Shown here: positions 28,027 to 35,048 of the stretch, piece by piece
How positions within the stretch are numbered: the stretch's first letter is position 1
Layout: each line of letters begins with the position of its first letter
Source: Methylobacterium organophilum
GTDB lineage: Bacteria > Pseudomonadota > Alphaproteobacteria > Rhizobiales > Beijerinckiaceae
Direction: 5' to 3'
NCBI RefSeq assembly: GCF_022179465.1
Contig: NZ_BPQV01000005.1
Span: 248,001 to 312,000 of the forward strand
Length of the DNA: 64,000 nucleotides
Translations under genes and position numbers: made by a program
Notes under the pieces: model-generated
Database searches by the model: none
The model's input: the letters and a program-made list of their open reading frames with translations, nothing else
What the model was told of the DNA's origin: nothing

Positions 28027-28223
28027 GAGCGTCGTCTCCCGGGGGAGGCCGGCTTTTCCTGCGGCCTCTCGTCTCCCCAAGGTCGGGCGCATGGCGGTTT
28101 TGGCAACGCCCGCCGCCTCTGCCTCCCGGGTCGTCGGGTGGTTTTTCCGGGCGAAAAGCTTATGATGCTCTTATGCTTCCGGCGTTGAGGCGGCCGGCGC
28201 AATGTTGCTAGCGTGCCGCCCGC

Positions 28224-29477
28224 ATGCATCATCCTGCCCTTCGCCCCTCCACCCTCGCCCTGTCGCTGATCCTCGCCGCCCCGCTGCCGGCCGGTGCCGC
28301 GCGGGCTCAGGAGAGCCGGGCCGCGGAGGACAAGCCGGCGCCCGGCGCGGAGGCGCCGGCGGCCGGCGGCAGCGACACGCGGATCGGCCTCCTCTACCGG
28401 CCCTTGCCGGCGCCGTCCTCCTACGACGCCGAGGCCGACCCGGAGGATCTCGGCGTCGCCGGGGCGCGGATGGCGGTGAAGGACAACAACACCACCGGCC
28501 GCTTCACCAAGCAGACCTACGCCCTCGACGAGGTGGCTCTCGAAGAGGGCCAGGATGCGGTCGCCGCCGCCAGGGCGCTCGTCGCCAAGGGGGTGAAGTA
28601 TGTCGTGCTGACCCTGCCGGCGGCCGAGGTGCTGGCCGTGGCCGACGCCCTCAAGGGGGAGGGCGCCGTGGTGCTGAATGCCGGGGCGCCGGACGACGCC
28701 CTGCGCGGGGTCGAGTGCCGCGCCAACGTCTTCCACGTGCTGCCGAGCCGGGCCATGCAAACGGATGCACTGGCGCAGTACATGACCCTGATGCGCTGGC
28801 GGAAGATCTTCCTGATCGTGGGTCCGACCGAGCGGGACAAGGCCTATGCCGACGCCCTCAGGAACGCCGCCCGCAAGTTCGGCCTCAAGATCACGGCGGA
28901 GAAGCCCTGGACCTTCGGGCCGCTGGCCAAGGCACGGGGCGACACCCCGACCCGGGCCGAGGCGATGGTCTTCACCCGGGGCCTCGACTACGACATGGCG
29001 GTGGTGGCCGACGAGGAGGGCGACTGGGGCGACTACGTCCCCTACCGCACCGTCGATCCCCGCCCCGTGGCCGGCACGCAGGGGCTGATCGCCACCACCT
29101 GGCATCCGACCCTGGAGACCTGGGGCGCGGCCCAGGCGCAGAACCGCTTCCGCCGCCTCTCGGGCCGGCTGATGCGCCCCCTCGACTACCAGGCCTGGGC
29201 GGCGGTGCGCACGGTGGGCGAGGCGGCGACCCAGAAGAAGTCGACCGACCCGGCGGTGCTCGCCCCCTACCTGACCACGCCCGATTTCTCCCTGCCCGCC
29301 TACAAGGGTGTCAGCCTGACCTACCGCCCCTGGGACCACCAGCTGCGCCAGCCGATCATCGTGGTGCAGCCCAAGGCCATGGTCTCGGTGGCCCCCGAGC
29401 AGGGCTTCATCCACCAGCGCACGCCGCTGGACACCCTGGGCACCGACGAGCCCGAGACGACGTGCAAGTTCAAATGA
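28224..29477 (+). CDS. lutA: ABC transporter periplasmic substrate-binding protein, LutA-like
   Basis: A 417-residue protein with a signal peptide (LALSLILAAPLPAGAARAQ) and a two-lobe periplasmic binding fold of the branched-chain amino acid/PQQ-linked type: TRIGLLYRPLPAPSSYD, GVAGARMAVKDNNTTGRF, KIFLIVGPTERDKAYADAL. It belongs to the PQQ-dependent alcohol ABC binding protein group. Position and order match lutA, first gene of the lanthanide utilization and transport locus of Methylorubrum extorquens. The predicted ligand is a lanthanide or lanthanide-chelator complex (inference from the lut context and from lanM downstream). Confidence 0.82.
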   Translation: MHHPALRPSTLALSLILAAPLPAGAARAQESRAAEDKPAPGAEAPAAGGSDTRIGLLYRPLPAPSSYDAEADPEDLGVAGARMAVKDNNTTGRFTKQTYALDEVALEEGQDAVAAARALVAKGVKYVVLTLPAAEVLAVADALKGEGAVVLNAGAPDDALRGVECRANVFHVLPSRAMQTDALAQYMTLMRWRKIFLIVGPTERDKAYADALRNAARKFGLKITAEKPWTFGPLAKARGDTPTRAEAMVFTRGLDYDMAVVADEEGDWGDYVPYRTVDPRPVAGTQGLIATTWHPTLETWGAAQAQNRFRRLSGRLMRPLDYQAWAAVRTVGEAATQKKSTDPAVLAPYLTTPDFSLPAYKGVSLTYRPWDHQLRQPIIVVQPKAMVSVAPEQGFIHQRTPLDTLGTDEPETTCKFK

Positions 29478-29646
29478 CGGCGGGGCTCTCGCCGGCGCCG
29501 GCCCGATGCGGCAATCGACCGCCTGCGTAAGGGGCGGGGACAGCCCGAATTTTCAGTTTGTGCGGCCCGCCCCGACAGGGCATCCCGCGCGGGACCATTT
29601 CTCGGAGACGGCGCGCGCAAGCGCCGGAACGACAGGGAGGACACGG

Positions 29647-30636
29647 ATGGGCGCTCGCTTCGGGGCGGGAACGGGCTTGGCGGCGCTCGCGGCGGCCTGG
29701 CTCGTCGCGGGCACGGCCGGCGCGCGGGCCGTGACCGCCTACGTCACCAACGAGAAGGCCAATTCGGTCTCCGTGATCGATGTCGGCACCATGACCGTGA
29801 CCGCCACCTGGAAGGTCGGGCGCCGGCCCCGCGGCGTCACCCTCTCGAAGGACGACAAGGAGCTGTTCGTCTGCGCGAGCGACGACGACCGCATCGACGT
29901 GCTCGACACCGCCACGGGTAAGGTGGTCCGCTCCCTGCGCTCCGGCCCCGACCCGGAGCAGTTCATCCTCGATGCCTCGGGCAACCCGCTCTACGTCGCC
30001 AACGAGGACGACAGCCAGGTCACCATCCTCGACATCGAGAAGAACAAGGTCCTCGCCGAGGTGCCGGTGGGCGTCGAGCCGGAGGGCATGGGCCTCTCGC
30101 CGGACGGCAAGATCCTGGTGAACACCTCCGAAACCACCAACATGGCCCATTTCATCGACACCAAGACCTTCCAGGTGATCGACAATGTGCTGGTGGATGC
30201 GCGGCCGCGCTTCGCCGAGTTCTCCGGCGACGGCAAGACGCTCTGGGTCTCGGCCGAGGTCGGCGGCACGGTCTCGGTGATCGATGTCGGCACCCGCAAG
30301 GTCATCAAGAAGATCACCTTCAAGATCCCGAGCGTGACCGACGAGCAGATCCAGCCGGTCGGCGTGCGCCTGACCAAGGACGGCGCCAAGGCCTTCGTCG
30401 CCCTGGGCCCGGCCAACCGCGTCGCCGTGATCGACACCAAGACCTACGAGGTGCTGAAATACCTGCCCGTGGGCCAGCGGGTCTGGCAGCTCGCCTTCAC
30501 CCCGGACGAGAAGCAGCTCTACACGACCAACGGCACCTCGAACGACGTCTCCGTGATCGACGTGGAGAACCTCAAGGTGGTCAAGAGCATCCCCGTCGGC
30601 CTGCTGCCCTGGGGCGTGGCGATCACGAAGAAGTAA
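29647..30636 (+). CDS. lutB: Periplasmic YVTN beta-propeller, LutB-like
   Basis: A 329-residue exported protein. AGGGAGG precedes the ATG at 29647. A signal peptide (GLAALAAAWLVAGTAGARA) is followed by about seven YVTN repeats (TAYVTNEKANSVSVIDVGT, LYVANEDDSQVTILDI, LYTTNGTSNDVSVIDVEN). It matches the PQQ-linked ABC-associated repeat protein family and the second gene of the lut order. Its job in lanthanide handling is unknown; propellers may scaffold or deliver cargo to a PQQ dehydrogenase. Confidence 0.82.
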   Translation: MGARFGAGTGLAALAAAWLVAGTAGARAVTAYVTNEKANSVSVIDVGTMTVTATWKVGRRPRGVTLSKDDKELFVCASDDDRIDVLDTATGKVVRSLRSGPDPEQFILDASGNPLYVANEDDSQVTILDIEKNKVLAEVPVGVEPEGMGLSPDGKILVNTSETTNMAHFIDTKTFQVIDNVLVDARPRFAEFSGDGKTLWVSAEVGGTVSVIDVGTRKVIKKITFKIPSVTDEQIQPVGVRLTKDGAKAFVALGPANRVAVIDTKTYEVLKYLPVGQRVWQLAFTPDEKQLYTTNGTSNDVSVIDVENLKVVKSIPVGLLPWGVAITKK

Positions 30637-30692
30637 TTCCCGACCAGAACGGCACGGACCGCCGGGCAACGGCGGCGGAGGAGGAAACGGAC

Positions 30693-31127
30693 ATGACACG
30701 GATGATGCGGGCCGCCCTGTCGGCCGCGGCCCTGATGCTCGCCGCCGCCCCGGCGGGCGCCCTCGACCTGACCAAGAAGCGCCAGAACCTGCCCGACCTC
30801 GTGCTCGGCAACGAGGAGGGCAACGACTTCGTGGTCGAGAACAAGGACATCGAGCTCGAGGCCGGCAAGGCCTATCGCCTGCGCATCGTCGCCAAGGGGC
30901 GGCAGGAATACAAGTTCTACGCGCCGGAGTTCTTCCGCTACATCTGGTTCAACCAGATCGTGATCGAGCACAAGGAGATCCATGGCGGCGGCGCGCCCGA
31001 TCACCTCGAATTCGACGATCCGGGCGAGATCGCCCTCGAATTCGTCGCGATCAAGCCCGGCACCTACAAGTGGTACGCCCAGGGCCTCGAGGACAAAGGC
31101 CTGACCGGCACGATCTCGGTGAAGTGA
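30693..31127 (+). CDS. lutC: Small periplasmic cupredoxin-fold protein, LutC-like
   Basis: A 144-residue exported protein (signal ending APAGA) with a cupredoxin-like beta sandwich (DIELEAGKAYRLRIVAKG, GEIALEFVAIKPGTYKWYAQ). It has no cysteine, so a type 1 copper site is not possible. Instead the centre is rich in acidic residues and His (IVIEHKEIHGGGAPDHLEFD). It is third in the lut order, with GGAGGAGG before the ATG. Its stop lies 2 bp from the start of the next gene. Confidence 0.78.
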   Translation: MTRMMRAALSAAALMLAAAPAGALDLTKKRQNLPDLVLGNEEGNDFVVENKDIELEAGKAYRLRIVAKGRQEYKFYAPEFFRYIWFNQIVIEHKEIHGGGAPDHLEFDDPGEIALEFVAIKPGTYKWYAQGLEDKGLTGTISVK

Positions 31128-31129
31128 GC

Positions 31130-31396
31130 ATGCGCAGCCTGCCCCGACCCGCCCTCCTGGCCGCGACCCTTCTGGGCGCGGCCCTCCTCCTCGCCGGACC
31201 GGCCCGCGCCGACGACAAGGCGGCCTGCGCCGACGGCATCGGCCTGATCGAGGCCGAGATCGCCAAGGCGCCCCCGGAGCCGGTGCTCGCCAAGCTGAAG
31301 AAGGCCCTGCGGGTCGCCCGGCGCGAGCAGGGGGAGGGCGAGTTCGACGAGTGCCTCGACGCCGTGGGCGACGCCAAGAGGGCGCTGCCGAAATGA
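31130..31396 (+). CDS. lutD: Small exported protein, LutD-like
   Basis: An 88-residue protein with a signal peptide (RPALLAATLLGAALLLAGPARA). The mature region is short and helical with two Cys (CADGIGLIEAEI and DECLDAVGDAKRA), which could form a disulfide. It is fourth in the lut order. Its TGA overlaps the ATG of the ATPase gene (ATGA). No domain is recognised. Confidence 0.72.
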   Translation: MRSLPRPALLAATLLGAALLLAGPARADDKAACADGIGLIEAEIAKAPPEPVLAKLKKALRVARREQGEGEFDECLDAVGDAKRALPK

Positions 31397-32130
31397 GCGC
31401 CGCCCTCGACGTCGCGCATGTGAGCCACCGCTTCGGCCAGCGCGCGGCCTTGTCCGACGTGTCGCTCGCGGTGGAGCGCGGGCGCTTCATGGCGCTGCTC
31501 GGCCCCAACGGCGCGGGCAAGACCACGCTGTTCTCGGTGATCACGCGGCTCTACAACAACCAGGAGGGCCGGGTCGCGATCTTCGGCCATCCCCTCGACC
31601 GGGAGCCCTCGCGGGCGCTCGCCCGGCTCGGCGTGGTCTTCCAGGCCCGCACCCTCGACACCGACCTCACCGTCGCGCAGAACCTCCACTATCACGCGAG
31701 CCTGCACGGCATCGGCCGGCGGGCGGCGCGGGCGCGCATCGAGCAGCTTCTCGCCCGGGTCGGCCTCGCCGAGCGGCGCGACGACAAGATCCGCACCCTC
31801 TCGGGCGGCCAGTCCCGGCGCATCGAGATCGCCCGCTCCCTGATCCACGAGCCGCGCCTGCTGCTCCTCGACGAGCCCACCGTCGGCCTCGACCTCGAAT
31901 CCCGCGCCGACATCGTCGGCATCGTACGGGCCCTGGTGCGGGAGGAGGGGCTCTCCGTGCTCTGGGCGACCCACATCTTCGAGGAGATCGCCCCCGAGGA
32001 CGAGGCCGTGGTCCTGCATCGCGGCCGCATCGTCGCCCGCGGCCGGGCCGGGGCGATCGGCACCCCCGGCGAGACCCTGGAAGCCGCCTTCCGCCGCCTC
32101 GTGGCCGAACCCGCAAAGGCCGCCGCATGA
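31393..32130 (+). CDS. lutE: ABC transporter ATPase, LutE-like
   Basis: A 245-residue ATPase with Walker [10 protein letters not shown], signature LSGGQSRRIEIA, Walker B LLLLDEPTVGLD and an H loop in WATHIFEE. It belongs to the PQQ-dependent alcohol ABC ATPase group and energises the permease encoded next. ATGA overlaps link it to both neighbours, so LutD, LutE and LutF are translationally coupled. Confidence 0.88.
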   Translation: MSAALDVAHVSHRFGQRAALSDVSLAVERGRFMALLGPNGAGKTTLFSVITRLYNNQEGRVAIFGHPLDREPSRALARLGVVFQARTLDTDLTVAQNLHYHASLHGIGRRAARARIEQLLARVGLAERRDDKIRTLSGGQSRRIEIARSLIHEPRLLLLDEPTVGLDLESRADIVGIVRALVREEGLSVLWATHIFEEIAPEDEAVVLHRGRIVARGRAGAIGTPGETLEAAFRRLVAEPAKAAA

Positions 32131-33020
32131 GCCGTTCCCCCACCCCCGCCGTCGCGAGCGGCGCCGAGGCGGGCGCCCGGCCCGTGCCCCATGCCGGACG
32201 GCTCGACGCGGTCGGCTACGGCATCGCCCTGGGCGGCATCGTGCGCCGGGAATTGCTGCGCTTCTTCAACCAGAAGGAGCGGTTCTTCTCGGCCCTGGTG
32301 CGCCCGCTCGTCTGGCTGTTCATCTTCGCCGCCGGCTTCCGCAACACGCTGGGCGTCTCGATCACGCCGCCCTACGAGACCTACGTGCTCTACGAGGTCT
32401 ACGTGGTGCCCGGCCTCGCCGTGATGATCCAGCTCTTCAACGGCATGCAATCCTCGCTCTCGATGGTCTACGACCGCGAGGTCGGCTCGATGAAGGTGCT
32501 GCTCACCTCGCCCTATCCGCGCTGGACGCTGCTCTTCGCCAAGCTGATCGCCGGCGTCTGCGTCTCCATCGTGCAGGCCTATACCTTCCTCGCGGTGGCC
32601 TCTTTCTGGGAGACCGACATCCCGCCGCTCGGCTACCTGACGGCCCTGCCGGCCTTCCTGGCGGCGGGCATGATGCTCGGCGCCATCGGCCTGTTCCTGT
32701 CCTCCCTGGTGCGGCAGCTCGAGAACTTCGCGAGCGTGATGAACTTCGTGATCTTCCCGATGTTCTTTGCCTCTTCCGCCCTATATCCCCTCTGGCGGAT
32801 CCGGGAATCGAGCGAGACGCTGTACTGGATCTGCGAGGCCAACCCGTTCACGCACGCGGTCGAGCTGGTCCGCTTCGCCCTCTACGTGAAGTTCGAGCCG
32901 CTCGCCTGCGCCGTCGTGGTCGGCACCACGCTCGCCTTCTTCACGCTCGCCGTCATCGCCTACGACCCCGGCCGCGGCCTCATGGCCCGGCGCGGCGGCC
33001 CGGCGGGCGAACCGAACTGA
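32127..33020 (+). CDS. lutF: ABC-2 type permease, LutF-like
   Basis: A 297-residue inner-membrane protein with six predicted helices of the ABC-2 type (LVWLFIFAAGF, AVMIQLFNGMQSSLSMVYD, MMLGAIGLFLSSLVRQ, ASVMNFVIFPMFFASSALYP). It falls in the PedC-like permease group linked to PQQ-dependent alcohol metabolism. With LutE and LutA it would form the inner-membrane lanthanide transporter. An ABC-2 permease is more usual in exporters, so combining it with a binding protein is a peculiarity of this family. Confidence 0.86.
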   Translation: MSRSPTPAVASGAEAGARPVPHAGRLDAVGYGIALGGIVRRELLRFFNQKERFFSALVRPLVWLFIFAAGFRNTLGVSITPPYETYVLYEVYVVPGLAVMIQLFNGMQSSLSMVYDREVGSMKVLLTSPYPRWTLLFAKLIAGVCVSIVQAYTFLAVASFWETDIPPLGYLTALPAFLAAGMMLGAIGLFLSSLVRQLENFASVMNFVIFPMFFASSALYPLWRIRESSETLYWICEANPFTHAVELVRFALYVKFEPLACAVVVGTTLAFFTLAVIAYDPGRGLMARRGGPAGEPN

Positions 33021-33032
33021 GAGACCCCCGGG

Positions 33033-33671
33033 ATGCTCCGCCTTCTGTCCCCCGCCCGCCTCGCGCCCCTCCTCGCCCTCGCCCTGGCCGGGCCGGCCCT
33101 CGCCCAGCCCAAGGCCGACCCGGACTGGCCCTGCGCCCAGCGCAAGGTGACCACCCTCGGCTACGGCTCGTTCTGGACCGGTCCCGACCTCGCCGAGGCC
33201 GGCGAATGGGGCAACGACCGCGAGGTGGCCCAGCTCGCCCGCAAGATCGCCTCCCGCCGCACGGAGCTGAGCGAGGTCGACGGCCTCCTCGACGAGTTCC
33301 TCGCCAAGAGCGGGGGCGACAAGGCCGAGAAGGACAAGCGCCTCACCCGCCTCTTCGCCGGCGTGTTCGAGGTGATCAACGGCGAGCGCAACACCGTGAT
33401 CAGCGGCATCACCCGCTACGCCCAGGGCCAGCGCCGGCTCGCCGAGCGCATCCGCGACGAGGCCGACAAGGTCAGCGCCGCCAAGGACAGCCCGGACAGC
33501 GACCCGACCAAGGTCTCCTCCAAGGAGACTGCCGACCTCGAGAGCGCCTTCAACTGGGACCGGCGCATCTTCCAGGAGCGCAGCCAGTCGGTCTCCTATG
33601 TCTGCGAGGTGCCGACCCTGCTGGAGCAGCGCCTCGGCGAGATCGCCCGGAAGATTCAGGCGAAGCTCTAA
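33033..33671 (+). CDS. lutG: Exported helical protein, LutG-like
   Basis: A 212-residue protein with a signal peptide (RLAPLLALALAGPALAQ). A Cys near the mature N terminus (DWPCAQRKVTTLGYGSFWTG) and another in YVCEVPTLLEQ may pair. Most of the rest is amphipathic helix (EVAQLARKIASRRTELSEVD). It is the seventh and last gene of the plus-strand run here, in the position of lutG. Its function is unknown. Confidence 0.75.
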   Translation: MLRLLSPARLAPLLALALAGPALAQPKADPDWPCAQRKVTTLGYGSFWTGPDLAEAGEWGNDREVAQLARKIASRRTELSEVDGLLDEFLAKSGGDKAEKDKRLTRLFAGVFEVINGERNTVISGITRYAQGQRRLAERIRDEADKVSAAKDSPDSDPTKVSSKETADLESAFNWDRRIFQERSQSVSYVCEVPTLLEQRLGEIARKIQAKL

Positions 33672-34017
33672 CCCCTTCGGAAGCCTCGATCGCAGGCAGC
33701 GCGGGACCCGGCGGGTCCGGCGCCGCTTCGCCCTGCGCCGCCAGAACCGGAAGCCAGGCCCGGTAGCCAAGCCCGGAGGCCAAGCCCCTTGGCGTCCGCG
33801 AGGACGGAGCGGCCCCGGAGAGAGCGCCCCGAAACGGCATCATTCTTCACAAAGTTACCCCGTGGGCATTGCCAAATTATCCCGGGACGGTTAGGCAAGC
33901 GACACAGGAAGACCCAAGTCCCCCCAGGCCCTTCCACGGCCCCTGCGCCTTCCTGATCCCCTCGCTGACCGGCGGCGGCTCCTCGGCTGCGGCTGCTCTC
34001 ACGGAGACTTCCACGAC
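33672..34017. other. 346-bp gap between lutG and lanM with no gene (lutH missing)
   Basis: In the described lut locus a TonB-dependent receptor gene (lutH, well over 2 kb) lies between lutG and lanM. Here the interval has no coding potential in the expected direction and no TonB-receptor fragment. It holds a weak GC inverted repeat (ggaccc/gggtcc region near 33705-33720) and an AT-richer patch at about 33840-33895 (aaagttacccc, ccaaattatccc), which is the likely lanM promoter area. No clear -35/-10 pair is called. Confidence 0.7.
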
Positions 34018-34428
34018 ATGGCTTCCCGGTTCTCCCGCCTCGCCTTCGCCGCGCTTCTCGGCCTCTCCTCCGCCGCCCTGGTCGCCGCCGCGGCCGAAGC
34101 CAAGCCCGCCGCCGCCATCGCCGCCTTCGACCCGGACAACGACGGCACCATCGACCTCAAGGAGGCACAGGCCGCCGCCGCCGCGACCTTCGACGGCCTC
34201 GATCCGGACAAGGACGGCACCCTGGACGCCAAGGAGCTCAAGGGCCGCGTCTCCAAGAAGGAGCTGAAGGCGGCCGATCCGGATTCCGACGGCACCCTCG
34301 ACAAGAACGAGTACCTCGCCCTGGTCGCCGCCCGCTTCCAGGCCGCCGAGCCCGACAACGACGGCACCATCGACGCCAAGGAGCTGGCGAGCCCGGCCGG
34401 CAAGAAGCTGCTCAAGCTCATGAAGTGA
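34018..34428 (+). CDS. lanM: Lanmodulin, periplasmic lanthanide-binding EF-hand protein
   Basis: A 136-residue protein with a signal peptide (RLAFAALLGLSSAALVAAAA, cut near AEA) and four EF-hand loops: DPDNDGTIDLKE (38-49), DPDKDGTLDAKE (62-73), DPDSDGTLDKNE (87-98) and EPDNDGTIDAKE (111-122). Proline at loop position 2 in all four and only 12-13 residues between loops are the hallmarks of lanmodulin, which binds lanthanides with picomolar affinity instead of calcium. Loop 4 begins with Glu rather than the Asp of loops 1-3 or the Asn I recall in M. extorquens, which may change its metal preference. Placement after the lut-type genes matches the known locus. A terminator follows. Confidence 0.93.
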   Translation: MASRFSRLAFAALLGLSSAALVAAAAEAKPAAAIAAFDPDNDGTIDLKEAQAAAAATFDGLDPDKDGTLDAKELKGRVSKKELKAADPDSDGTLDKNEYLALVAARFQAAEPDNDGTIDAKELASPAGKKLLKLMK

Positions 34429-34679: not shown

Positions 34680-35048
34680 ATGAACCATCTCTTTGCCGCC
34701 GCCGCGCTCCTCGCGAGCCTGAGCGCCTCCCAGGCCCTGGCGGAGACGGCCCCCGGGCCCGGTCCCCAGCCCGCCGCGGACAAGCGCAACAACGCCGCCA
34801 AGATCGCCGGCCTTGCCGGCTTCGTGAACCTGTCCTGCCCGACCCTGCGCACCGACACGGCCCGCCTGAAGAGCACGGTCACGGCGATGGGCGTCTCCCT
34901 GGAGGAGCTGGAGCAGGGCGAGCTGCGCCTGCGCGCCCAATCCTACATCGAGGCTTACCGGAAGGACGTCGAGGCGAGCTGCAAGCGGGCGGCGGAGCTG
35001 TTCGGCGCGGAGGGCAGGGTCGTGCCGGGCCTGTTCGTCGCCCGGTAG
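34680..35048 (+). CDS. Small exported hypothetical protein
   Basis: A 122-residue protein with a signal peptide (MNHLFAAAALLASLSASQAL, cut after ALA). The mature part has two Cys (VNLSCPTLRTD and EASCKRAAELFG) and helices. No family is recognised. It lies 251 bp after lanM and its terminator, in the position of the exported-protein gene that follows lanM in M. extorquens (recalled, not checked). An upstream in-frame ATG at 34575 is less likely because it would bury the signal peptide. Confidence 0.65.
   Translation: MNHLFAAAALLASLSASQALAETAPGPGPQPAADKRNNAAKIAGLAGFVNLSCPTLRTDTARLKSTVTAMGVSLEELEQGELRLRAQSYIEAYRKDVEASCKRAAELFGAEGRVVPGLFVAR

Follow-up and report, generated by a model that had tools for sequence, protein, structure and literature searches.

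The window (the whole 64-kb stretch of DNA analyzed) contains the genes lutA to lutG in order, followed by lanM, at positions 28224-34428, all on the + strand. This arrangement had been described in an earlier note on this DNA and is confirmed by the open reading frames (ORFs), Pfam matches, and alignment with relatives. The cluster starts with lutA (28224..29477), encoding a periplasmic binding protein (Pfam Peripla_BP_6) and placed as in relatives, and lutB (29647..30636), encoding an exported beta-propeller protein identified by Pfam and by relatives, for which the start codon is our choice. The next two genes, lutC (30693..31127) and lutD (31130..31396; a small exported protein, judging by its sequence), have no Pfam match and were recognized by the relatives at the same place. 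These are followed by lutE (31393..32130), encoding an ABC ATPase (Pfam ABC_tran; relatives), for which the ATG at 31393 was chosen over the GTG at 31351; lutF (32127..33020), encoding an ABC-2 permease (Pfam ABC2_membrane); and lutG (33033..33671), encoding an exported protein that lacks a Pfam match and aligns with the ORF of relatives at the same place. The lanM gene (34018..34428) encodes a lanmodulin, with a signal peptide called by eye and four D/E-P-D EF-hands (Pfam EF-hand and sequence) that all have proline at position 2 (DPDNDG, DPDKDG, DPDSDG, and EPDNDG). Further downstream, a small exported ORF (34680..35048, +) occupies the position of lutI in AM1; a similar sequence was detected in only one other examined locus (L133, non-lut), and the assignment as lutI is not confirmed.

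The interval between lutG (end 33671) and lanM (start 34018) spans 346 bp (33672..34017) within one contig that also holds its flanks, and, as the earlier note had pointed out, contains no receptor gene. Short mechanically called ORFs overlap the interval, none of them a receptor, and no receptor remnant was detected: the best translated similarity to 47 receptors (21.6 bits) is within the range of 20 shuffles (20.0-28.5 bits). Simple promoter and terminator patterns and Rfam matches were likewise not found in this region. The description of the gap as non-coding held with respect to the receptor, but the interval is not featureless, given that it contains a conserved dyad at 33868-33899. The alignment of the interval with relatives revealed no deletion scar and, together with the tree described below, does not decide between an ancestral absence and a deletion. 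The lut clusters of Methylorubrum extorquens AM1 and PA1 share with this locus the lutA-G order, lanM, the ABC transporter, and the periplasmic proteins, but have lutH in the slot that is empty here, where the receptor is unlinked and of the TonB_Ln type.

The unlinked receptor and its spread in the genus

The genome to which the window belongs (5.06 Mb, 113 contigs) contains 17 plug-domain genes. A genome-wide search for a LutH-like receptor and its neighbors, which the earlier note had proposed, yielded a single candidate, on another contig (G000:C4:203919-206450, - strand; hereafter, the C4 receptor). It is 843 aa long from the ATG, without an internal stop, and has Plug and barrel domains. 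With LutH as the query, the C4 gene was the sole match in this genome at E <= 1e-50 among the 8 of 11 candidates scored, and the query with the slot receptor of M. haplocladii gave one match at E <= 1e-5, with all 23 candidates scored. The C4 receptor is 39-42% identical to LutH (39-40% to M. populi LutH), that is, below the >50% identity used to define LutH orthologues (PMC8561711). Its identity to the M. haplocladii slot receptor is 78%, and three receptors from other genomes are 69.6, 70.1, and 71.0% identical to it. Two of the three precede a MoxY-type kinase (Pfam) and the third a homologue of that kinase; in one further locus tested, a LuxR-type regulator follows next, as in the published gene order of tonB_Ln and mxcQE in 22A. 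We assigned the C4 receptor to the TonB_Ln type by its domains and closest kin, a comparison to which the 22A protein itself is external. The earlier note had offered three options, namely, that lutH had moved, that an unrelated receptor is used, or that lanthanides enter by another outer-membrane route. The first is the closest, in that a receptor is encoded elsewhere in the genome, although it is of the TonB_Ln type and hence not LutH proper; the other two may hold but are not needed. Thus, the receptor was probably not lost, a gene of the right type being present elsewhere; because the assembly consists of 113 contigs, a second receptor could be missing from it.

The neighbors of the C4 receptor are ntrYX (convergent) and a malonate decarboxylase operon, so that a location beside mxcQE was ruled out in this genome. 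TonB_Ln of Methylobacterium aquaticum 22A (Maq22A_c14845) is also unlinked to lut, but its gene adjoins mxcQE, lying upstream of it, and the protein is 35.7% identical to LutH (PMC9260416); the C4 receptor is ~70% identical to the receptors of other genomes that adjoin mxcQ-like kinases, the 22A protein being outside this comparison. A further difference is that lanM adjoins lutG here and, according to the accessible part of the published record, is located elsewhere in 22A. Earlier work accounts in kind for the absence of lutH. In the accessible portions of the papers, almost all lut genes except lutH are reported as conserved, and LutH at >50% identity is confined to clade B and two clade A strains, such that the others may use another receptor (PMC8561711); an mxaF mutant of 22A requires TonB_Ln for growth with lanthanide (PMC9301485).

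We compared 112 genomes of the genus that holds Methylobacterium and Methylorubrum. lutG was matched in all of them, twice as a short fragment, and a receptor of the LutH/TonB_Ln type in 110, with at most 8 candidates per genome scored. By coordinates and among the same candidates, the receptor is located directly after lutG (same contig, same strand, <2.5 kb) in 76 genomes and only elsewhere in 34, with no match in 2; at least two of the 34 (G108 and G083) are cut by contig ends. Two receptor types, LutH and TonB_Ln, with 35-41% mutual identity, occupy the slot. Four genomes (G035, G094, G114, and G075) resemble the window in that lutG is followed by lanM and the receptor is encoded elsewhere.

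Quick phylogenetic trees, with SH-aLRT support only, were built for the lut proteins and the receptors. The lut protein tree (39 loci) places the window with the Methylorubrum-type and G029/G131/G088/G089 lineages at 92% SH-aLRT, and two changes are needed on it to account for an empty slot next to lanM. In the receptor tree (47 rows), the C4 receptor groups with those of G030, G019, G075, G114, G035, and G094 and one metagenome locus (99%), and does not group with the M. haplocladii receptor. This placement would fit either exchange between lineages or an old duplicate. The receptor type in the slot, LutH or TonB_Ln, differs between related lut loci (L007 and L150 versus L008, L151, and L152), suggesting that one receptor was replaced in place by the other. 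In three genomes (G131, G089, and G088; L128, L129, and L130), a LutH-lanM pair is found away from lutA-G; hence, the receptor and lanM can move together.

A DNA element upstream of lanM, receptor, and mxaF genes

Comparison of the lutG-lanM interval with relatives revealed one clearly conserved stretch, upstream of lanM. It is a 32-bp dyad (33868..33899) of the half-site ATTGCCnnATnnTCCCGG, begins 150 bp before the lanM ATG, and consists of ATTGCCAAATTATCCCGG (33868-33885, +) and CTTGCCTAACCGTCCCGG (33882-33899, -), with symmetry at 11/16 positions. The promoter region of the C4 receptor contains ATTGCCGAATGATCCCGA, starting 227 bp upstream of the ATG (23.6 bits), with a second copy 22 bp on. 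An exact core, TTGCCNNANNNTCCCG, a pattern fixed after the sites of this receptor were known, occurs twice in the window (0.03 expected) and twice in the receptor locus L114 (0.01 expected). Throughout the 5.06 Mb, there are five exact matches, two at lanM, two upstream of the receptor, and one orphan, against none for the reversed control; across the 112 genomes, the counts are 748 and 148, respectively. The orphan (G000:C10:148306-148321; L160:8307-8322, -), near which no target gene was recognized, recurs with the same letters at G033:C1:707205-707220.

A position weight matrix (PWM) was built from 17 lanM upstream stretches including that of the window, of which lut loci supplied 14 and LutH-lanM pairs 3; receptor promoters were outside the training set. 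The shuffled controls for the 20-receptor, 16-receptor, lanM, and mxaF tests preserve base composition only. A score of 15 bits was reached by 17 of 20 further promoters of receptor genes (shuffles, 1/200). When these 20 were included in a scan of 63 receptor regions, for which the shuffle control covers 20 of the 63, 57 reached this score on the better of both strands; L010, L140, L152, and L153 were left out as repeats, and because L010 is the L152 locus, it is uncounted. The six regions below 15 bits include that of the M. haplocladii slot receptor (10.9 bits). Half of the lanM genes outside the lut locus carry the element (10/20 with, 10/20 without; shuffles, 0/200). A scan of 44 loci gave 60 sites with at least 18 bits, and 36 of these are in the 420 bp preceding a receptor, a space of 18,480 of 745,840 bases (2.5%); sorted manually, the other 24 are divided among lanM upstream regions (13, of which 12 belong to the training set), lutA upstream regions (7), and other places (4).

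A motif of TonB receptors in general was ruled out: none of the 16 other receptor regions of the same genome, one of which (L213) spans only 419 bp, reaches 15 bits (best, 13.3; shuffles, 2/160). The genome also holds XoxF/ExaF-type genes, recognized by the D-Y/F-D signature, and the flanks of four of these contain no site of 10 bits or more. Six loci of MxcE-like regulators in this genome (seven matches) yielded one weak site (best, 10.6 bits). Upstream of lutA in the window, there is a weak reverse-oriented half-site (28090..28107, -; 8.9 bits); stronger half-sites occupy similar places in the M. haplocladii and Methylorubrum-type loci, and none of at least 5 bits was found there in several other loci compared. 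Upstream of the second lanmodulin-like gene of this genome (G000:C5:28510-28890; L161:7511-7891), the product of which is 65% identical to the window LanM, lies a weak half-site copy (7.9 bits), then a further ATTGCC.

In related species, the element also precedes mxaF, which encodes the calcium methanol dehydrogenase. This gene was matched in 50 of 60 genomes, and the best 30 promoters were scored: 25 reach 12 bits (shuffles at 12 bits, 1/300) and 17 reach 15 bits. In the promoters scored, the half-site occupies a near-fixed place, 229-248 bp upstream of the ATG; the site of the genome studied here scores 14.8 bits at 245 bp and has no exact core match. The mxaF transcript is reported to start 167-170 nt upstream in Methylobacterium/Methylorubrum strains (PMC9320726, as far as accessible), so that the element would be located ~60-80 bp before the start, in an activator-like place. 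In the Methylorubrum mxaF promoter, the half-site lies upstream of the published AAGACA/TAGAAA promoter (PMC9320726). The geometry differs among targets, with a dyad at lanM, a direct repeat in many receptor promoters, and a single half-site copy at Methylorubrum mxaF. By eye, the upstream regions of seven unlinked receptors (L182, L184, L187, L188, L189, L190, and L201) have the half-site with an opposed similar partner and not a direct repeat.

A possible lanthanide switch

The best explanation, to which we assign a probability of about 0.8, is that the lut cluster is complete except for the receptor, which is encoded elsewhere by the TonB_Ln-type gene, and that the receptor and lanM promoters share the element of a regulator. 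Judging from the sequence, the C4 receptor would carry lanthanides in this strain, and the element is a putative regulator binding site. The lanthanide, probably chelator-bound, would enter the periplasm through the C4 receptor, be bound there by LanM and LutD, and, with LutA, reach the LutEF ABC transporter. Because the receptor and lanM promoters carry the same element, the two genes could be kept under one control although they are located on different contigs.

We favor the possibility that the element is the site for the response regulator of the lanthanide switch, MxcE or MxbM; these are candidates because mxcQE is reported to affect both lanM and mxaF-dependent growth. In the accessible sections of the papers, lanM of 22A is lanthanide-induced, with the promoter response lost without mxcQE or tonB_Ln, and mxcQE is required for MxaF-dependent growth (PMC9260416); the 22A tonB_Ln promoter is weaker with more lanthanum (PMC9301485, which also gives 69 homologues); and lanthanum causes a fourfold repression at the promoter of lutH (PMC7391723). 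The result on the 22A promoter conflicts with a 1.3-fold induction of the receptor gene by lanthanum in an earlier study, quoted in PMC9260416. Considering that the receptor and mxaF are lanthanide-repressed and lanM is induced in 22A, and that all carry the element, a common regulator is the simplest view. Such a regulator would activate mxaF and the receptor under lanthanide scarcity and, with lanM induced while the other two are repressed, would have to act both ways. The choice of regulator, its direction of action, and the role of the repeat geometry are what we infer from the placement of the sites and the published responses.

The presence of the element at the receptor, at lanM, and, in related species, before mxaF may point to a single lanthanide switch common to these genes. 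Both lanthanide sensing and the change between calcium and lanthanide methanol dehydrogenases are unsettled in Methylobacterium; the published picture has been called "currently patchy" (PMC9260416), and PMC9301485 only infers the sensing mechanism, according to the parts of these papers that are accessible. A short, consistently placed element at these three targets offers a direct handle on this question that can be altered in a reporter or serve as bait in a search for the regulator. Where a species lacks lutH, the element also helps single out which of its many TonB receptors is likely to be the one for lanthanides, a choice useful for rare-earth recovery work. No earlier description of such an element was found, including in word searches of the accessible text of PMC9260416, PMC7391723, PMC9301485, PMC9320726, and PMC11845868 (for the first and last of these, among the matches listed), with most subscription papers beyond the search; as far as this search reached, the shared element is new, and it may be described elsewhere.

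In a broader reading, to which we give even odds, ATTGCCnnATnnTCCCGG would act throughout the genus as the operator of the lanthanide switch. A single regulator that reads lanthanide status would control mxaF, lanM, and the receptor gene of either type (LutH or TonB_Ln), whether or not it lies in the slot, as well as lutA in some clades, with the geometry, single copy or direct repeat versus dyad, setting repression or induction. Receptor genes could then change place or pass from one lineage to another because the element-bearing promoter goes with them.

Somewhat less probable, although a serious alternative, is a wider role of the regulator, in methanol use or general methylotrophy and not in lanthanide sensing as such. 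The occurrence of the element upstream of mxaF in many genomes, the published need for mxcQE in MxaF-dependent growth, and the opposite directions of the published lanM and receptor responses all speak for such a role. However, the three targets with published data, mxaF, the receptor, and lanM, are all lanthanide-responsive, and the exact core in this genome is confined to lanM, the receptor, and one orphan place, which argues against it. An alternative in which the C4 receptor has a different task and one of the remaining 16 TonB receptors transports the lanthanide complex is unlikely: the 17 plug-domain genes leave room for this, and published receptor sets vary between species (to judge from the accessible literature), but at the thresholds used, the C4 gene is the only one with a match to the LutH/TonB_Ln type, and its promoter region alone reaches 15 bits. 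A recent deletion of the LutH gene from the slot, or an assembly fault, appears slightly less likely still, for although the nearest lineages in the lut tree have LutH proper and the slot is filled in 76 of the 112 genomes, the gap with its flanks lies within one contig and retains no remnant, and in four other genomes lutG is likewise followed by lanM and the receptor is encoded at another place.

Outside the genus, 61 loci (1.1 Mb) contain three sites of at least 19 bits. One of the three, a half-site in Paracoccus sp. M683 (L036:794-811, +), is strong (27.7 bits).
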